A stretch of DNA of 38,592 nt from a virus, in IMG/VR virus record IMGVR_UViG_3300014501_000036, positions 1 to 38,592 of that record, one strand, 5' to 3'. Shown piece after piece: positions 6,675-32,288 of this stretch (positions within the stretch are counted from its first letter, which is position 1; each line of letters starts with the position of its first letter). The position numbers and the translations under genes are program-made. The notes under the pieces were generated by a model that saw only the letters and a list, made by a program, of their open reading frames with translations, was not told the DNA's origin and ran no database searches.

Positions 6675-7598
6675 ATGCCTCCCCATGCCGACGTGCTGCA
6701 ATGGGAACATCTGCCGTTCCCCAAGTCTCTGAGAGACTTTCAGAAATTGTTCAAAGACGACGCCGCGTGCGCGCGATACCTGGAGGGCGCAAAGTGGCCC
6801 AAAGGTTTCGTGTGTCCGCATTGCGAGGAAAAAGGCGAGCCGTTTCGCATGGCGACGCGGACTAGCGTTCTGACGTGCCGCGCCTGCCGCAAGCAAACGT
6901 CCCTGACGGTCGATACCGTGATGCAGCGCACACATGCGCCGCTGACGGTCTGGTTTTGGGCGGCCTACCTCGTTTCCAGCATGACGCCGGGGATGTCCGC
7001 AGTTCAATTCCAGCGCCAGCTTGGCCTCTCGCGATACGAAACCGCGTTCCAGATTTTGCACAAGCTGCGCGCCGGCATGGTCCGCCAAGGCCGCGATCAA
7101 TGGCAGACTTTCAAGAAAGCGCTCGGCATGACGAAGCCAGGACCGAAACCGCAACCTATCGATATTCGCTTTCGCCGATGGATCAACCTCGACGGACCTC
7201 TTCCGGCACATCGGCCTGAGCTTGGACCGTGCTGGTTGTGGACTGGCGCAATTCGCAAGGACGGCTATGGAGCTTTTCAGATCCAGGCCAAAGCCGAGAT
7301 GGCGCATCGCGTCGCCTTCTATATCGCCGAAGGGCGCTGGCCTGACCCGTGCGCGCTGCATCATTGTGATACGCCACTCTGCGTGAGGCGCACGCATCTA
7401 TTTGAGGGAACGAAAGCCGACAATACCGCTGACATGGTTGGCAAGCGACGCAGCACGCCGCGCATCCTTACGGACGAAAAGGTCGCGGAAATGGTGGAAC
7501 GTAAAGCGCGCGGCGAGACACAGACTGCGATAGCTGAAGCGCTCGGCGTGAGCCAAGCGCTCGTATCGCTTACCCTCAAGCGGCGGATCGCGGCATGA
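6675..7598 (+). CDS. Chimera: IS1595-type transposase N-terminus fused to HNH nuclease and HTH
   Basis: 307 residues in three parts. Residues 1-145 match the start of IS1595/IS1016 transposases: a sentence-like FQKLFKDDAACARYLEGAKW, a zinc ribbon (FVCPHCEEKG ... LTCRACRKQTSLT), then TVMQRTHAPLTVWFWAAYLV and SRYETAFQILHKLRAGMVR. This stops just where the DDE catalytic domain should begin. Residues 165-260 are an HNH_3-type nuclease (GPCWLWTGAIRKDGYGAF ... AHRVAF ... ALHHCDTPLCVRRTHLF). The last 45 residues form a helix-turn-helix (ETQTAIAEALGVSQALVSLT). The transposase core and terminal inverted repeats are absent, so it is not an insertion sequence. It is probably a free-standing homing endonuclease that borrowed a transposase DNA-binding domain. 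The stop overlaps the next ATG. Confidence 0.85.
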   Translation: MPPHADVLQWEHLPFPKSLRDFQKLFKDDAACARYLEGAKWPKGFVCPHCEEKGEPFRMATRTSVLTCRACRKQTSLTVDTVMQRTHAPLTVWFWAAYLVSSMTPGMSAVQFQRQLGLSRYETAFQILHKLRAGMVRQGRDQWQTFKKALGMTKPGPKPQPIDIRFRRWINLDGPLPAHRPELGPCWLWTGAIRKDGYGAFQIQAKAEMAHRVAFYIAEGRWPDPCALHHCDTPLCVRRTHLFEGTKADNTADMVGKRRSTPRILTDEKVAEMVERKARGETQTAIAEALGVSQALVSLTLKRRIAA

Positions 7599-9510: not shown

Positions 9511-9675
9511 ATGAGAGAAGCCAACGGCCCCCTGCGCCTGGCGATCCTCCTGCTGGTCCTGGTCGGCTGGGCCTGGGTCACGCAACCCGAGCATCCGCAG
9601 GCCTGCACGCGGGACTTCTGGCGGTGGACGCCGATCGACTGGACGACCGATACGGCCGGGGAGTTTTGCCGATGA
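9511..9675 (+). CDS. Small membrane or exported protein (54 aa)
   Basis: MREANGPLRLAILLLVLVGW is a basic start plus a hydrophobic helix, followed by a Trp- and Cys-containing tail (CTRDFWRWTPIDWTTDTAGE FCR). A GTG at 9490 would add seven residues. The final 32 bases are repeated, slightly diverged, at the end of the downstream decarboxylase gene. The stop overlaps the next ATG. A Cys-rich short exported peptide is the best description. Confidence 0.55.
   Translation: MREANGPLRLAILLLVLVGWAWVTQPEHPQACTRDFWRWTPIDWTTDTAGEFCR
9640..9671 (+). repeat. Direct repeat copy 1 flanking pyrF-like gene
   Basis: 32 bases starting TGGACGACCGATACGG and ending TTTTGCCG. A second copy at 10386-10417 matches at 29 of 32 positions. 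Both copies encode the peptide WTTDTAG near the C-terminus of their gene. Together they bracket the decarboxylase coding sequence. Confidence 0.85.
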
Positions 9676-10421
9676 TGAACCTAGCTGATCGCCTAATTGT
9701 CGCGTTGGATGGCGATGCAGCCGAGATGGGTTCTGTGTTCCTGCGACTTCATCGTGAGACGTCAGCACGCTGGTTCAAGGTTGGCCCCCAAATGCTGTTG
9801 CGGCACAGCGGGATGATATTCATCGAAAACATGATGCGTGAGGACGGCGTCAATCTGTTCTACGATGGAAAGGTCTACGATACACGCGATACGGTTACGA
9901 ATACCGTTCGTCGTTCTTTCGATCTCGGTGTCCGTTTCATTACCGTACACTCCACGCCCAGCGTCATGGAGGCGGCGATGCGCGCTAAACCAGCGGACGA
10001 ACGTTGTAAGGTGCTAGCGGTAACGCACCTGACCGACGATGGAACTCCTTATTCTAGTTCTAAGCTTCGATACGCGCTGTCGATCTGTGATGGTGTGGTC
10101 GGATCATACGTAATAGCGCGTTATGTTCGTCAATGGCTTGATGAGAAAAGTCCCACGATCATCAGTCCAGGTATTAGACTCCCTGACAAGTATGGCCAGA
10201 TTGAGAAAACTAGAGACAATCATGATCTGAGCCACGTCGCAACGGCGTCTGAGGCGCTCCAAGCCGGCGCCGATTATCTTGTCGTCGGCCGCGCAATTAC
10301 TCAAGCTCCGGACCTGATCGCCGCCGCCCGTGCAATTATATCCGAGATGGAATCCGCACACCTGCGAGCGCCGGAAAATGCCGATTGGACGACCGATACG
10401 GCTGGGAAGTGTTGCCGGTAA
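9672..10421 (+). CDS. pyrF: Orotidine 5'-phosphate decarboxylase (PyrF-like)
   Basis: 249 residues; converts OMP to UMP, the last step of de novo pyrimidine synthesis. The TIM-barrel signature is clear: RLIVALDGD at strand 1, WFKVGPQMLL, the catalytic D-x-K-x-x-D motif in YDGKVYDT (Asp65, Lys67, Asp70), ITVHSTPSVM, LAVTHLTDDG, ISPGIRLPD and finally YLVVGRAIT with the phosphate-binding Gly-Arg. Length is close to bacterial PyrF. The last dozen residues (DWTTDTAGKCCR) duplicate the end of the gene upstream and do not belong to the enzyme family. GGGGAG (9658-9663) sets the start; an adjacent ATG at 9675 is possible. A phage-carried pyrF could keep UMP supply high during DNA and RNA synthesis. 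All catalytic residues are present. Confidence 0.9.
   Translation: MMNLADRLIVALDGDAAEMGSVFLRLHRETSARWFKVGPQMLLRHSGMIFIENMMREDGVNLFYDGKVYDTRDTVTNTVRRSFDLGVRFITVHSTPSVMEAAMRAKPADERCKVLAVTHLTDDGTPYSSSKLRYALSICDGVVGSYVIARYVRQWLDEKSPTIISPGIRLPDKYGQIEKTRDNHDLSHVATASEALQAGADYLVVGRAITQAPDLIAAARAIISEMESAHLRAPENADWTTDTAGKCCR
10386..10417 (+). repeat. Direct repeat copy 2 flanking pyrF-like gene
   Basis: Second copy of the 32-base repeat at 9640-9671, with 3 mismatches. It forms the last codons of the decarboxylase gene, so the enzyme carries a foreign C-terminal tail. Confidence 0.85.
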
Positions 10422-22423: not shown

Positions 22424-23530
22424 ATGACCAACCCCGCCGGCCATCCGACAGATTTCGAGAGCTTCCTCACCTGGGAAGCCCTGACCGAAATGCTGTCCTA
22501 CGATCCGGCCAGAGGTGAGTTTAGATGGGTGCGTCGAGGCAATCGCGAATGGCCCGGCCGCATCGCGGGATGCATCGATACGAACTCTGGTTATCGGCGG
22601 ATCAAAATCTTAGGCCGCAGTTTCTTCGCCTCGCGTTTGGCGTGGCTCTATATGAAGAAGCGCTGGCCGACCCAGTTGATCGACCACAAAAACGGCAATC
22701 CCGGAGATGATCGCTGGATCAACCTCCGCGAGGTGAGCCGTACAGAGAACATGCACAATCGGCGTGTCTCAAAGAACAGCAAGACGGGCGTCAACGGCGT
22801 TTACTGGCAGAATGGCGGCTGGGCCGCTCGAATTCGCGTTGATGGCAAGCGCATCTTCCTTGGCACGTTCAATACCATTGAAGAAGCGGCCGCGGCGCGC
22901 GCTGGTGCTGAAATCGCCCACTATGGCGAGCATCAACGCGCCGTTTCAGAGCGATCCGTGCCCGCGCCAGAGCCGCTGGAACCGCTGAAGAAACCCGCTC
23001 CTAAGCGCGGCGTTATCGGTGACTTCGAATCATTCCTCACACATGAGGAACTGATTGAAATCCTCTCTTACGATCCTGTCTCCGGATTTTTTACGTGGCG
23101 TAGCAAGAAGACAAATCCGCGCATCAAGATCGGGAGCCGTGCTGGGGATCATAAGGAGGGCGAGTATTCCGATATCACGATCCTCTGCCGCAAATTTCGC
23201 GCTCATCGCCTCGCTTGGCTCTACATGACCGGTAAGTGGCCGAAGGGTGTCATTGATCACATCGATGGCATCAAATCGGATAATCGCTGGGACAACCTGC
23301 GCGACGTGACGAAGGGTCAGAACGCGCACAACAGCCGCCTCAATAAGAATAACAAAAGTGGGCACACTGGCGTCAGTTTTCGCTCCGATAGTGGGAAGTG
23401 GCGCGCAATAATCAGGCTCAATGGTAAACTAAAAAATCTTGGGCAGTATGATACGGCCGAGGATGCTGTCAATGCTCGCGAGAAATTCGAGAGGGAATTT
23501 CTTAGCGACTTCTTCATAAGGAGTGCTTGA
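22424..23530 (+). CDS. Composite homing endonuclease: two HNH-AP2 units
   Basis: 368 residues made of two homologous halves. Half 1 (about 10-160): FESFLTWEALTEMLSYDPAR, HNH core LIDHKNGNPGDDRWINLREV with N..N (ENMHNRR), then AP2 domain TGVNGVYWQNGGWAARIRVD. Half 2 (about 200-365): FESFLTHEELIEILSYDP, HNH core VIDHIDGIKSDNRWDNLRDV, then TGVSFRSDSGKWRAIIRLNG. HNH_3 nucleases with an AP2 DNA-binding domain are typical free-standing homing endonucleases; the tandem form is unusual. It sits between decoration and capsid genes. The capsid gene's ribosome site AAGGAG (23518) lies within its 3' end. Both active sites look intact. Confidence 0.9.
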   Translation: MTNPAGHPTDFESFLTWEALTEMLSYDPARGEFRWVRRGNREWPGRIAGCIDTNSGYRRIKILGRSFFASRLAWLYMKKRWPTQLIDHKNGNPGDDRWINLREVSRTENMHNRRVSKNSKTGVNGVYWQNGGWAARIRVDGKRIFLGTFNTIEEAAAARAGAEIAHYGEHQRAVSERSVPAPEPLEPLKKPAPKRGVIGDFESFLTHEELIEILSYDPVSGFFTWRSKKTNPRIKIGSRAGDHKEGEYSDITILCRKFRAHRLAWLYMTGKWPKGVIDHIDGIKSDNRWDNLRDVTKGQNAHNSRLNKNNKSGHTGVSFRSDSGKWRAIIRLNGKLKNLGQYDTAEDAVNAREKFEREFLSDFFIRSA

Positions 23531-23531
23531 G

Positions 23532-24440
23532 ATGGCGGTGAGCAGGGCTGTAATCCGTGATTTACTTCTTCCTGGTCTCGTAGCAATCGTGGGAAAATAC
23601 CCGCAAATCGAGCGCCAATGGCCGCAGATTTTCTCGCGGTCGAACTCCAAGATGGCGCTGGAGCGCGCGGCTGAGATGCGGTACGCCGGCCTCGCCCAGT
23701 TAAAGGCGGAAGGCGGCGCGACCGTGTTCGACAACGCGGCCGGCGAGCGATACGTCTACAACATCGAGGCCATCGCTCTGGGTCTCGGCATCGCCATGAC
23801 CCGTGAGAGCCTCGACGACAACCTCTACAAGGACCAGTTCGGCCCGATGAGCATGGGTCTGGCAGAGTCCTTCCACCAGACGGAGGAAATCCTCCACGCC
23901 AACCTTCTGAACACCGCCACGACCTACAATACGTCAATCATCGGCGATGGCGTTTCGCTCTGCAACACGCTGCACCCGATCGACAACGGCTACTACGCCA
24001 ACCGTCCGTCGCCCGATGTTGGCCTCAACGAAGCCGGCATCGAATACGCCCTCCAGCAGGTCCGCGTGTTCCCGGACCAGGCCGGGCTGCGGCTCTTGGC
24101 GCGGGGCAAGAAGCTGGTGGTGCCGATCGCCCAGCAGTTCACCGCCCATCGCCTCTGCCGCGCGGATTTACGCCCTGGCACCTCGAACAACGACATCACC
24201 GCCTTCATTTCGAGCGGTGGTCTGTCCGAGGGCTACCAGGTCATGGACTACCTGTCCTCGCCCCTCAACTGGTTCGTGACCTCCACCATCAAGGGCCTCG
24301 TCTCCTTCAACCGCATGCCCTTCGAGTTGGATATGCAAGTTGACCCTGTCACCGGAAATTTGATGCTTATCGCTTATCAGCGCTACGGAATCGGCTACGT
24401 CAACCCGCGGTCGATTTGGGGATCGTTCCCTACATCGTAG
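23532..24440 (+). CDS. Major capsid protein
   Basis: 302 residues from ATG at 23532. The N-terminus is helical, followed by a domain with FHQTEEILHANLLNTATTYN, the loop LCNTLHPIDNGYYANRPSPD and KKLVVPIAQQFTAHRLC. This matches the Mu gpT-like group of HK97-fold capsid proteins (E-loop helix and the conserved LHPxxNG loop). AAGGAG eight bases before the start predicts high expression. The gene is flanked by two homing-type nuclease genes. No maturation protease gene is seen in the window. Confidence 0.8.
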   Translation: MAVSRAVIRDLLLPGLVAIVGKYPQIERQWPQIFSRSNSKMALERAAEMRYAGLAQLKAEGGATVFDNAAGERYVYNIEAIALGLGIAMTRESLDDNLYKDQFGPMSMGLAESFHQTEEILHANLLNTATTYNTSIIGDGVSLCNTLHPIDNGYYANRPSPDVGLNEAGIEYALQQVRVFPDQAGLRLLARGKKLVVPIAQQFTAHRLCRADLRPGTSNNDITAFISSGGLSEGYQVMDYLSSPLNWFVTSTIKGLVSFNRMPFELDMQVDPVTGNLMLIAYQRYGIGYVNPRSIWGSFPTS

Positions 24441-24529
24441 GTTGTAGAAGCATTTCCTCTTAATGGTGCTTGCATAAGAAACGCCGCCCTATTAACATCG
24501 TCGGAGTATATGACGATGGAGAGATGGGC

Positions 24530-25471
24530 ATGGACGACGCCGACTTAGTTCGTGAGCGCTATACTTACGACCAAGACACGGGCGAATGGTTGTGGCGCAA
24601 TCCGCCGCCGCGCGCTCCGAAGTCGAAGGCGTCGCCAGGACGTCCGGCCGGTGCATTCGATAAGCGTGACGGCAATCGGCAACTCAATTTAGACGGCCGT
24701 ATCTATCCCGCTAGCCGTCTGGCGTGGCTTTATGTCTACGGTGTCTGGCCTCCCGCCCAGGTATGCTACGAAGACCCGGCACTTCCAATCCCCACTAGGG
24801 ACCGTTTCGTAAACCTCCACTTAGCGGGAGAGCAAGCTGAGTTGACGGCTGAGCTTCTGCGACGACTGCTGGAGTACAGTCCAGACGCAGGAGTGTTTCG
24901 CTGGAAAGTTTCTCGTAAAGGTGTGAAAGCAGGCAACGTAGCGGGTGGCCCCAAAAAGACCAGCGATGGTACAATGCATTGGTATATCCGCATCGATCGT
25001 GTGGATTATCCTGCGCAGCGCCTCGCGTGGATTTACACTCATGGAAGGTGGCCTGAGAAGAGATTGAATTTTAAGAACGGGCGGACAATTGATTTTCGGC
25101 TCGACAATATCGTAGAGGGCGATTTTGAGCATGGCACGCGAGCTACGCCGACAATCCCAGAAGATGAGCGCCGTGTCCGCCAAGCCGCTGCCATGCGCCG
25201 GTCCGATCTCAAGCGCGACTTCGGCATCACGCATGCTCAATATCTAGCGATGCACGATGCCCAGAATGGCTTATGCGCCATCTGTGGCCAACCTGAGACC
25301 GCCGAACGGGATGGCAAAATCAAATGGCTAGCTGTCGATCATGACCACGCCACAGGCATGATCCGGGCGCTGCTCTGCCAGCGGCACAATGTCATGATCG
25401 GACATTGCAATGATGATCCAGCGATTTTGCGCGCTGCAGCCGATTACATAGAACGGGTTGCGGGCAACTGA
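24530..25471 (+). CDS. Composite nuclease: two degenerate HNH units plus endonuclease VII domain
   Basis: 313 residues from ATG at 24530 (GGAGAG at 24518-24523); an in-frame TTG at 24470 would extend it. Units 1 and 2 have the HNH_3 frame (YTYDQDTGEWLWRN; LLEYSPDAGVFRWKVS) and the R-LAW-Y-x-G-WP stretch but lack the catalytic His: VCYEDPALPIPTRDRFVNL and RLNFKNGRTIDFRLDNI. The C-terminal 80 residues are a recombination endonuclease VII domain (CAICGQPET, AVDHDHATGMIRALLCQRHN). Its second zinc pair is CxxH instead of CxxC. It probably uses the old HNH units as DNA readers and cuts with the EndoVII part. It follows the capsid gene directly, mirroring the nuclease before it. Confidence 0.85.
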   Translation: MDDADLVRERYTYDQDTGEWLWRNPPPRAPKSKASPGRPAGAFDKRDGNRQLNLDGRIYPASRLAWLYVYGVWPPAQVCYEDPALPIPTRDRFVNLHLAGEQAELTAELLRRLLEYSPDAGVFRWKVSRKGVKAGNVAGGPKKTSDGTMHWYIRIDRVDYPAQRLAWIYTHGRWPEKRLNFKNGRTIDFRLDNIVEGDFEHGTRATPTIPEDERRVRQAAAMRRSDLKRDFGITHAQYLAMHDAQNGLCAICGQPETAERDGKIKWLAVDHDHATGMIRALLCQRHNVMIGHCNDDPAILRAAADYIERVAGN

Positions 25472-29379: not shown

Positions 29380-29973
29380 ATGACCGAGCACGAGCCAAAG
29401 GCAAACACCGAGCACCACGATCCGGACGGTGATCCGGATGAGGTCGAGCATGGTGTCGGCATGTCGCGCGGCGGTCGCAAGAGAAAGCGGCGTGGCGGTG
29501 TGGCGGAAGGTGGGAAGGCACCGCATCGGCTGGATCGGCGCCCGCGTCAGGCAGGCGGTCGCTCGCATCGTGACGATGGGGGATCGATATCAACGCCGCT
29601 CCCGGTATCTGATTCATCAATCGAACGCGCTAGGAGGGATTTTGGCACGGTTCAGCCTCGGCTGATGATTGATGAGCCGACCAGGGACGCCATCATGAAG
29701 GGATCGACCAGCGATCTCAGCGCGCCACAACGGGCAGCTGGGGGCCGTCTCACCGCTGGCGAGCGGCAGCACATGCCTAAGTCGGGGTTTGCTTTACCAG
29801 GGAAGGGAGAGGGTCCGAAGGGTGCCGGTTCCGGATCGTACCCAATTCCAGATGCGGGACACGCTAAGTCAGCGCTCGCTCGGGCCAAGCACAATGCCTC
29901 GCCAGCCGAGCAGGCAACCATCCGGCGGAAGGTACATGCAAAATTCCCTGGCATGCAACTCAGCGAGGACTAG
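29380..29973 (+). CDS. Basic Gly-rich virion-region protein
   Basis: 197 residues. GGAGG (29371-29375) precedes the ATG. The first half is Arg/Gly/Lys-rich and disordered (GGRKRKRRGGVAEGGKAPHR, then LDRRPRQAGGR). The C-terminus has the phage motif SYPIPDAGHAKSALARAKHN and EQATIRRKVHAKFPG, often found in putative virion proteins next to capsid or protease genes. The role is unknown. A 20-bp palindrome follows the stop. Confidence 0.65.
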   Translation: MTEHEPKANTEHHDPDGDPDEVEHGVGMSRGGRKRKRRGGVAEGGKAPHRLDRRPRQAGGRSHRDDGGSISTPLPVSDSSIERARRDFGTVQPRLMIDEPTRDAIMKGSTSDLSAPQRAAGGRLTAGERQHMPKSGFALPGKGEGPKGAGSGSYPIPDAGHAKSALARAKHNASPAEQATIRRKVHAKFPGMQLSED

Positions 29974-29977
29974 CGCA

Positions 29978-29997
29978 GCCGTTCCACATGGAACGGC
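29978..29997 (+). repeat. TTCC-type palindrome, copy 3 (20 bp)
   Basis: GCCGTTCCACATGGAACGGC, a perfect inverted repeat with 9-bp arms around CA, four bases after a stop. Its core is the reverse complement of 16637-16648. It may act as an RNA hairpin or as a protein-binding site; parS sites of ParB systems (TGTTCCACGTGGAACA type) have a similar outline, differing in the core. Confidence 0.55.
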
Positions 29998-30048
29998 GCG
30001 TCATCTCCACAGCGAAAATCATTTCCGCTCGGTAAGGGGAAGGCTGAT

Positions 30049-30102
30049 ATGGCCTCTCCAATGATCGCCGGAGTACCCAGCGGCACTTATAAGTACGCGC
30101 CG
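30049..30102 (+). repeat. Duplicated 5' coding end of neck gene, copy 1
   Basis: Encodes MASPMIAGVPSGTYKYAP, matching the start of the gene at 30951 (MSSPMPTSSGTYKYSP). It has the strong AAGGGGAAGG ribosome site and is fused in frame to the GIY-YIG nuclease. All shared non-Met residues use different codons from the second copy (30951-30998). Confidence 0.75.
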
Positions 30103-30948
30103 GGGTGTGATAATCTCTCGATAGAGAATCGGGGGGTAAAAAGTATGAGCAGCACCGCGAACATCGTCATCTATGAGATAACCAATCTTCTTAATCAGAA
30201 GTCCTATATCGGGCTTACGACGAAGGGTGGCCAGCATCGGTGGTGCCAACATAAGGCAAGTGCGGCGCGGGGAGAGAAGTCGCCCCTATACAATGCAATA
30301 AGGAAATATGGGATAGCGAATTTTCGCTTTGATATTTTGGCTGAGTGCACCTCAAAGGAGCAAGCCAAAGAGTTTGAGATATGGTTCATAGCAAAATTCA
30401 AACCTTCGTATAATCGGAGTACGGGCGGAGAAAGTCATGCTGGTCATAAGCTCAGCCCGGCTCAATTAAAAAGACTTTCGGACTCGCATAAGGGAATGAT
30501 AGGAACATTTCTCGGCAAGACTCACACGCCGGAAACCCGTAAACGCCTCTCTGAACTCGGCATGGGTCAACAGCGCCGGCTTGGCAAAAAATCGCCAGGA
30601 TCTGGTCTAAAGGCAGCAGCGACGAAACGGGAACGCGGCACGGTAGGACGACCGCCGTGGACTGGAGGAACTCGATCAGAAGAAACTAGACTCCGCATAA
30701 GCACTGCAAAAACTGGGAAACCGCGATCGCCGATTCCTGAGGAAACACTGGATATATTCAGGGAAAATATGCGTCGTGCCGCTCGCGCTCGGCGAAAGAA
30801 GATCGTGTGCCTAAATGATCAAATGGTTTTTTCGCACTCAGCAGAGGCAGCCAAGCATTATGGCCTTCATGAAAAAACTCCTGGCCGCTTAGCCTGCAAC
30901 GGTGGCACATCGCTCTCTGGTCTGCGTTTTGCGTATGTGGACGATTAA
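30049..30948 (+). CDS. GIY-YIG homing endonuclease fused behind neck-gene N-terminus
   Basis: 299 residues. The first 18 come from the neck gene; the nuclease proper probably starts at about residue 33 (ATG at 30145, with GGGGGG upstream as an independent ribosome site). Motif: VIYEITNLLNQKSYIGLTTK (Y-x10-YIG), then HRWCQHK and a conserved-looking Glu in FEIWFIAKFKP. NUMOD3-type and basic motifs follow (HKGMIGTFLGKTHTPETRKR; RLGKKSPGSG; EETRLRISTAKTG). It is a free-standing homing endonuclease, not in a recognisable intron. The nearby 5' end of the interrupted gene is re-created downstream at 30951. Confidence 0.88.
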   Translation: MASPMIAGVPSGTYKYAPGCDNLSIENRGVKSMSSTANIVIYEITNLLNQKSYIGLTTKGGQHRWCQHKASAARGEKSPLYNAIRKYGIANFRFDILAECTSKEQAKEFEIWFIAKFKPSYNRSTGGESHAGHKLSPAQLKRLSDSHKGMIGTFLGKTHTPETRKRLSELGMGQQRRLGKKSPGSGLKAAATKRERGTVGRPPWTGGTRSEETRLRISTAKTGKPRSPIPEETLDIFRENMRRAARARRKKIVCLNDQMVFSHSAEAAKHYGLHEKTPGRLACNGGTSLSGLRFAYVDD

Positions 30949-30950
30949 CA

Positions 30951-30998
30951 ATGTCTTCCCCGATGCCAACTAGTTCAGGAACGTACAAATATTCGCCA
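30951..30998 (+). repeat. Duplicated 5' coding end of neck gene, copy 2
   Basis: Encodes MSSPMPTSSGTYKYSP. The motif SGTYKY is coded TCA GGA ACG TAC AAA TAT here and AGC GGC ACT TAT AAG TAC in copy 1, so no codon is shared. The two Pro codons and the Ser codon also differ. Confidence 0.75.
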
Positions 30999-32288
30999 GA
31001 CATATCAACGTTGGTGCGCAACGCCTATAGTCGCATCCAGGTTTTCCCGCCGCAGATGTCTATCATGCACCTGACGGATGCGCGCATTTGCCTGAACTTG
31101 GTGCTGGAGGATCTGAGCGGAAATCGCGGAATTAATCTGGCCCAAGTGGATTTACTGCAAATCCCGCTGACGCCGGGTCAGATCGTCTTTCCGCTCCCAG
31201 CCAACACGGTCGATTTGCTCGATTGCTTCATCCGCACGTTCACGCCGAACACGACCGCGCTCAACATCGGCAATGTGCTGATGCCGATCGGGCCGCCCGG
31301 CAATCCGTTGGTGTCCTTGCCCTACGGCGATCCGATGATCGTGCAGCCGCCATCGACGGTGTTCTCATCGATAGCCGGGAGTGCGACGATCTCGATGTAT
31401 TGGCCGAACCATGGTCAGGTTACGGGGAATCCGCTCTTTTGGGGTTGCCCGATCTCGATTGGCGGCCTGGCGATCTCGGGCTTCAGCATGGTCAGCGCCG
31501 TGATCGACGCCAACAATCTGCAATTCCTCGCACCGTCAGTGGCGCTCGAAACGCAAATCGGCCAGGGCGGGACGCCGCTCTTCTTCACGAATGCTTCATC
31601 ACCCGTCGCAAGCTGCATCCTGCCGGGCCATGGGTTGTCGGTGGGAAGTACCTTTCAGATCCCGATCGCGGTCTCTTTCGGTGGATTTACGTTGGCCGCT
31701 GGCAGCACGGTCACGGTAACGGCGGTCGCGAGCAGCTATCAGTTCTCGTTCCAGCCAGGCGGCACGGCGACCTCGACCGCCATGCAGTTTATGAACAACG
31801 GCCAGATCCCGGTGGCCGGACAGGCGCCGAATGTCCAGTTCGAGGATGTTCCCCTGTTCCCGCTGTCCCGAACGGACTATGTCGATATCGGGGTCAAGGA
31901 CGTTCCGGGGCGCCCGACATCGTACTGGCTCAACCGTGTCGTTCCTCCCAACTTTAGTATCTACCCGGTCGCCCCCGTAGCTCCCGCAGCCCAGCCTGCC
32001 ACGCCCGGCATACCCAATCCAGGGCTACAATATTATGGGTTCTTCGGCTACAGGATGAGACAAATACAGGATGCCAATCCACAGGGCGGGCAGATCCTGG
32101 ATTCTCCCAAGCGCATGTGGCCGGCGATCACCGCCTTCCTCTGCGCGGCCCTTGCGGAAATATACCGGCCCGATCAGTGGGAGGCGAAAGTCGCCGCGGC
32201 CGAGAAGGCTTGGCAACTGGCCTCGACCTCAGATATCGAGCATGTCACGAGTCGAATCGTTCCGGCCTTTGGAAGTTATTTCAGGTAA
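30951..32288 (+). CDS. Head-tail neck (adaptor-type) protein
   Basis: 445 residues. Helical N-terminal part (STLVRNAYSRIQVFPPQMSI, DARICLNLVLEDLSGNRGIN) is followed by a Pro/Ser-rich beta insertion (residues 110-300), then SRTDYVDIGVKDVPGRPTSY and YPVAP, and a helical end (SPKRMWPAITAFLCAALAEI). This sequence pattern is usual for phage adaptor or stopper proteins in podovirus-like modules. The start is the second copy of a duplicated 5' end. The next gene overlaps by no bases and is 11 bases away. Confidence 0.75.
   Translation: MSSPMPTSSGTYKYSPDISTLVRNAYSRIQVFPPQMSIMHLTDARICLNLVLEDLSGNRGINLAQVDLLQIPLTPGQIVFPLPANTVDLLDCFIRTFTPNTTALNIGNVLMPIGPPGNPLVSLPYGDPMIVQPPSTVFSSIAGSATISMYWPNHGQVTGNPLFWGCPISIGGLAISGFSMVSAVIDANNLQFLAPSVALETQIGQGGTPLFFTNASSPVASCILPGHGLSVGSTFQIPIAVSFGGFTLAAGSTVTVTAVASSYQFSFQPGGTATSTAMQFMNNGQIPVAGQAPNVQFEDVPLFPLSRTDYVDIGVKDVPGRPTSYWLNRVVPPNFSIYPVAPVAPAAQPATPGIPNPGLQYYGFFGYRMRQIQDANPQGGQILDSPKRMWPAITAFLCAALAEIYRPDQWEAKVAAAEKAWQLASTSDIEHVTSRIVPAFGSYFR

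Follow-up and report, generated by a model that had tools for sequence, protein, structure and literature searches.

A homing endonuclease gene beside a codon-changed copy of its probable target, the start of a phage neck gene

Introduction

Why would a phage carry the start of one of its structural genes twice, in two versions that encode similar peptides with different codons? The question is raised by a 38.6 kb virus genome (IMG/VR record IMGVR_UViG_3300014501_000036), which was analysed over its whole length of 38,592 nt (the window). The start of the neck gene is present once as an in-frame fusion to a homing endonuclease gene (HEG) with GIY-YIG and NUMOD3 domains (30049-30948) and once at the true start of the gene (30951). 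The initial annotation of this locus proposed a cleave-and-rescue design, in which the element lands in the gene start, preserves protein function by carrying a recoded copy and removes its own cut site. It is known in principle that HEG carriers are resistant through a different target sequence: recipients of phage HEGs become resistant as the donor's version of the sequence takes the place of their target (PMC12724721).

Results

Anatomy of the neck-gene start

The nuclease ORF (30049-30948, 299 aa) begins in frame with copy 1 (30049-30102; MASPMIAGVPSGTYKYAP), and its stop codon is separated by 2 nt from the ATG of the 445-aa neck gene (30951-32288), which opens with copy 2 (30951-30998; MSSPMPTSSGTYKYSP) (Table 1). 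The nuclease matches the GIY-YIG domain PF01541 (8.7e-9, 36 bits against a cut-off of 22.6), NUMOD3 PF07460 in two stretches (1.1e-11, exceeding the cut-off) and the PHROG 314 homing endonuclease family (3e-35); no solved structure matching it by sequence was found. It is a separate ORF with its own stop, outside any detected self-splicing intron or intein. A second ATG, preceded at a distance of 8 nt by a GGGGGG motif, is present at 30145, and translation of the nuclease may begin at either this ATG or the one at 30049. Judging from the spacing, the neck gene may be translationally coupled to the nuclease stop.

Table 1. Features of the neck-gene locus and of the parallel capsid-gene locus in the window.
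Feature	Position	Strand	Basis or remark
Conserved upstream gene, marker of empty sites	29380..29973	+	In L006, L007 and L109 the homologue immediately precedes the neck gene, without an intervening HEG
AGGGGAAGG, Shine-Dalgarno-like, putative original gene start	30035..30043	+	5 nt 5' of the ATG at 30049; predicted from sequence
Copy 1, N-terminal part of the nuclease ORF and probably what is left of the original neck-gene 5' end	30049..30102	+	Relatives' codon match 0.48, 67th percentile
Linker without detected homology; GGGGGG at 30131-30136 precedes the nuclease's own ATG	30103..30144	+	Sequence reading
GIY-YIG homing endonuclease with NUMOD3 motifs	30145..30948	+	Pfam and PHROG matches
Copy 2, recoded neck-gene 5' end	30951..30998	+	9/9 shared non-Met codons differ; match 0.21, 3rd percentile
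Neck / tail-adaptor-like gene, intact	30951..32288	+	'Tail adaptor' homologues in MW202675 and OQ401623; 51-53% identity to L109
HNH_3/AP2 homing-type nuclease, 5' of the major capsid gene (parallel case)	22424..23530	+
Major capsid gene, synonymous peaks at both ends beside two HEGs	23532..24440	+	Comparison with L004
HNH_3/Endonuclease VII homing-type nuclease, 3' of the major capsid gene (parallel case)	24470..25471	+

The claim that the neck N-terminus occurs twice is borne out by the peptide likeness of the two starts, which both begin with Met and gave a local score of 51, the highest of 45 nuclease-flank comparisons. This was the only example of a duplicated gene-end arrangement among the 45 HEG flanks. 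Gene-end duplication was not obvious for the HEGs located 3' of neck genes in five relatives (L010, L097, L079, L055 and L002), and no duplicated capsid end was found. An assembly chimera was considered and is judged improbable, as copies 1 and 2 have little DNA in common for misjoining.

Two further observations concern the surroundings of the locus. A perfect hairpin (CCGTTCCACATGGAACGG, 29974-30000) is located 3' of the upstream gene, and the relative L109 has a hairpin of another sequence in the same place. The neck protein of the window's clade is ~200 residues longer than that of most relatives (~230 aa), owing to an extra central region.

Codon contrast between the two copies

The initial annotation also stated that each shared non-Met residue uses a different codon, and this holds at all nine positions (copy 1/copy 2: TCT/TCC, CCA/CCG, AGC/TCA, GGC/GGA, ACT/ACG, TAT/TAC, AAG/AAA, TAC/TAT and CCG/CCA). 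The chance of copy 2 avoiding all copy 1 codons is 0.007 under the codon usage of the phage, 0.008 under that of the nuclease and 0.027 under uniform usage, with these statistics based on 8-9 codons and computed after the finding was seen. The codon overlap of the copies is lower than even full saturation predicts, an effect that is modest and post hoc. In codon adaptation, copy 2 ranks among the lowest 1.5% of 17-codon windows, and its poorly adapted codons extend to about codon 21 (near 31013), slightly beyond the duplicated part. Third-position G+C is low in copy 2, but HEG-free members of the clade dip likewise, and this was therefore dropped as a sign of foreign origin.

We consider it probable that this locus is a HEG plus a recoded gene start. 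A GIY-YIG HEG would have inserted itself within the first ~18 codons of a structural gene essential to the phage. Copy 1, the original start, would thereby have been left upstream, and its ribosome-binding site and ATG may drive or feed the in-frame fused nuclease there. Directly after its own stop the element would carry a synonymously different gene start (copy 2, ~16-21 codons) that joins the rest of the gene seamlessly, so that the neck protein would be kept whole. The enzyme would be expected to cut HEG-free alleles near the neck-gene start; repair from the HEG-bearing genome would copy the nuclease together with the recoded start, which would escape further cutting. As anatomy, 'HEG plus recoded gene end' is supported: copy 2 is joined to an intact neck ORF and linked to the nuclease. 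The old end has not been removed in the window's neck gene, and therefore both versions persist. We infer the cleavage specificity of the enzyme and the resistance of copy 2 from this arrangement.

Synonymous rewriting of capsid-gene ends beside HEGs

The window contains a parallel case in its major capsid gene, which has a HEG on either side. In comparison with its nearest HEG-free relative (L004), synonymous changes amount to 16/19 in the first 25 codons and 16/23 in codons 276-300, against ~36% between the ends, with no matching rise in amino-acid change at the ends. A search with the capsid protein yielded relatives among viral contigs and bacterial genomes, in most of which a profile then identified the neck gene; these routes succeeded, whereas exact peptide patterns for the same nuclease or neck gene retrieved nothing from viral contigs. 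Across 102 capsid genes, pairs with one HEG-flanked member were compared with HEG-free pairs. At 3' ends the synonymous difference was 0.63 with one HEG-flanked member and 0.49 in HEG-free pairs, with similar amino-acid differences (0.139 vs 0.144), and at 5' ends the synonymous difference was 0.64 vs 0.49. When clusters of near-identical phages were counted once, the synonymous excess was 0.142 vs 0.009 at 3' ends (10 vs 72 clusters, p=7e-6) and 0.129 vs 0.003 at 5' ends (4 vs 77 clusters, the HEG-flanked set being small, p=2.6e-4). The opposite capsid ends gave p=0.63 and 0.045. HEG presence was called with five query nucleases, and any HEG-bearing genes mislabelled as HEG-free would weaken the effect, not create it. 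An excess of synonymous change without an excess of amino-acid change beside HEGs is therefore supported as a general property of this phage family. Selection on mRNA structure at gene starts was rejected as the cause of the recoding, as 3' ends are affected as well.

Near-isogenic genomes show the same association directly. L038 and L039, with 99.6% identity 5' of the capsid gene, have capsid proteins that do not differ at all (L038:1912-2823, L039:2059-2970); in L039 only, an HNH nuclease is inserted just 5' of the capsid gene. Within that gene, 25 of the 27 nucleotide differences fall in the first 84 of 912 nt, changing 19 of the first 28 codons and 2 of the other 276 without changing a residue. 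This pair is almost an experiment, and the strongest support comes from the capsid comparisons across the family. The pairs L062/L050 and L060/L055 differ at the capsid 3' end beside a downstream HEG: the final few codons are changed and the stop codon is swapped (TAA to TGA or TAG). Neck-gene 3' ends in L055 and L061 differ at five of the last seven codons, all synonymously. A GIY-YIG HEG follows the gene in L055, and an apparently different nuclease-like ORF, identified by eye, follows it in L061, which therefore makes this a comparison of HEG with HEG. Taken with the neck locus, these comparisons support the existence of candidate cassettes in which a homing nuclease is coupled with a version of the adjacent essential gene's end that differs synonymously. 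Gene ends beside HEGs have apparently been rewritten repeatedly so that the gene survives, uncut.

Separately, L007 has a short remnant (9613-9996) 5' of its capsid gene that resembles the window's capsid-upstream HNH nuclease and is perhaps a decaying HEG.

Origin of the codon changes

These codon changes may have been made by selection for escape from cutting, and not solely by the import of a diverged allele. The main alternative is that the nuclease came from a diverged phage and dragged in an ordinary gene end by co-conversion, with no selection against cutting, the differences being what ordinary divergence produces when the protein is strongly conserved. Phage HEGs routinely co-convert their flanks (PMC2988022), and yeast mobile introns raise polymorphism in their flanking exons, mainly at synonymous sites (PMC5378118). 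The gene ends are conserved as proteins, so that synonymous-only change would be expected in any case, and an unsampled diverged donor would yield the same picture without selection for recoding; three codons of the nearest relative, L109, are also common to copy 2. Against co-conversion alone, HEG-adjacent capsid 5' ends differ from those of HEG-free relatives by ~0.69 at any genome distance, whereas most HEG-free pairs fall at 0.48-0.59. These ends also have no close match in the sampled phages (best identity to any sampled phage of 0.75 vs 0.865 for HEG-free genes, p=0.002), and the probability obtained for the codon contrast between the two neck-gene starts is low even at saturation. The distance-independent excess and the missing near matches lean towards something beyond ordinary import. 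We regard co-conversion alone as a serious candidate whose chances fall somewhat short of even; this judgement concerns the origin of the codon changes and is compatible with the HEG plus recoded gene start as anatomy.

Which copy is the native start

More than 60 relatives lack a HEG at the neck-gene start. Three of them (L006, L007 and L109) represent empty sites, in which the neck gene comes immediately after the conserved upstream gene. The core S-G-T-Y-x-F-x-P of the aligned neck starts is mostly encoded as AGC GGC ACA/ACC TAC/TAT ... CCG, and the relatives' codon match is higher for copy 1 than for copy 2 (Table 1). Within the closer clade, the match is 0.49 for L006, 0.43 for L007 and 0.48 for L121, but only 0.19 for the nearest relative, L109. 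An empty site with copy 1-like codons had been put forward as support for recoding; such codons are found across the family and in L006, L007 and L121, but not in L109. The upstream region had diverged too far for a DNA alignment to tell which copy is native.

The codons of L109 bear on a second alternative, that copy 1 is foreign, having arrived with the nuclease from another phage, and that copy 2 is the native start. L109 has ACG, TCG and CCA in common with copy 2 and only TAT in common with copy 1. However, copy 1 is located at the syntenic start behind the conserved upstream gene and has its own putative ribosome-binding site, and its codons are family-typical (0.48) whereas those of copy 2 are atypical (0.21). 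We therefore regard a foreign copy 1 as unlikely. Copy 1 is probably the original start, with the reservation that the nearest relative is nearer to copy 2 in its codons, its own start being atypical.

An ancient tandem duplication or a chance N-terminal likeness, with no tie to homing, is very improbable. The copies have only ~16 residues in common, which would suit such an origin, but the likeness tops the HEG flanks as described above, and the first 22 aa of the two starts score 49 against a background of 14 +/- 4.5 (mean and SD) for random N-termini. Codons would persist after plain duplication, and none of 56 other aligned neck starts has the lysine of SGTYKY in its place. The ancient duplicate that the initial annotation had offered as its alternative is thus disfavoured. 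Scans for degenerate DNA encoding SGTYKY[AS]P turned up only an unrelated 235-kb contig. A reading of copy 1 as a spliced 5' exon, with the nuclease encoded in an intron, is scarcely credible, although phage HEGs are often located in group I introns (PMC2988022): no Rfam family matched the window or the insertion at the gathering cut-off, nor the insertion at E<=5, and therefore there is no recognisable group I intron, only 42 nt separate copy 1 from the nuclease ATG and 2 nt the nuclease stop from the neck ATG, and the neck ORF is complete without splicing.

Discussion

Comparison with known systems

The nuclease resembles the free-standing GIY-YIG HEGs of phages (Seg of T4 and kin; PMC2988022) in combining a GIY-YIG domain with NUMOD-type DNA-binding motifs and in adjoining a conserved structural gene outside an intron or intein. 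Unlike in Seg-type HEGs, the probable original 5' end of the target gene has survived here, fossil-like, in fusion with the nuclease, and a short block with altered codons has taken its place. The arrangement also resembles that of fungal mitochondrial mobile ORFs, for which duplicated gene 3' ends are already known: mobile ORFs in Glomus (atp6, atp9, cox2 and nad3) and in Allomyces atp6 carry diverged duplicates of gene 3' ends, with 63.5% nucleotide and 91% amino-acid identity between the duplicated atp6 ends (PMC3630166). There, as here, an endonuclease in an essential gene is flanked by two versions of one gene end that are similar as proteins and diverged in nucleotides (9/9 codons in our case); the native end stays on the far side, and one example is of the GIY-YIG type (PMC3630166). 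The fungal cases are found in organelles and duplicate the C-terminus, whereas here the 5' end is duplicated, in a phage, with the nuclease 5' of the rescued gene. As the duplication is N-terminal and not C-terminal, the locus works like the fungal type and is not a member of it.

Synthetic Cleave-and-Rescue and home-and-rescue drives (PMC7951863, PMC7968924) likewise link a nuclease to a recoded copy of an essential gene. Those drives are engineered and RNA-guided, whereas the cutting and rescue in the phage are putative. HEGs also cluster beside essential structural genes and mark exchange boundaries in HEG-bracketed phage exchange regions (PMC10448857); unlike in the window, synonymous rewriting of gene ends is not reported for these regions in the available portion of that source. 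A limited search of the open-access literature found no published 5'-end version in a phage and no family-wide synonymous footprint. What is new here is that the duplicated end is a 5' end, that the element is in a phage and that the old start survives as a fossil.

Implications

The initial proposal of cleave-and-rescue is a good description of the anatomy: a HEG lies in the start of an uninterrupted structural gene that is kept whole by a codon-changed copy, and copy 1 resembles HEG-free starts. As a mechanism it is plausible. A broader proposal would be that phage HEGs are natural cleave-and-rescue elements, in which selection for escape repeatedly builds short synonymous-only gene ends that travel with the nuclease, and that the neck locus keeps both the original and the rewritten target. 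We advance this tentatively, as having just under an even chance of being correct.

Short synonymous-only blocks at the gene end beside a nuclease constitute a measurable footprint of a selfish nuclease. This footprint could be used to predict HEG targets straight from genomes and to examine a possible influence of selfish elements on codon choice. The neck locus offers a before-and-after record of one target within one genome, and L038/L039 an almost isogenic comparison, so that the protection of HEG carriers, and co-converted divergence versus selected recoding as its source, become directly testable.

Other elements in the genome

A terminase-like ORF (50-2854) contains a LAGLIDADG domain, probably an intein, and the phage therefore has at least five homing-type elements. 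In another ORF (6675-7598), the zinc ribbon of an IS1595-type transposase occurs together with an HNH_3 domain, and a helix-turn-helix was matched weakly.
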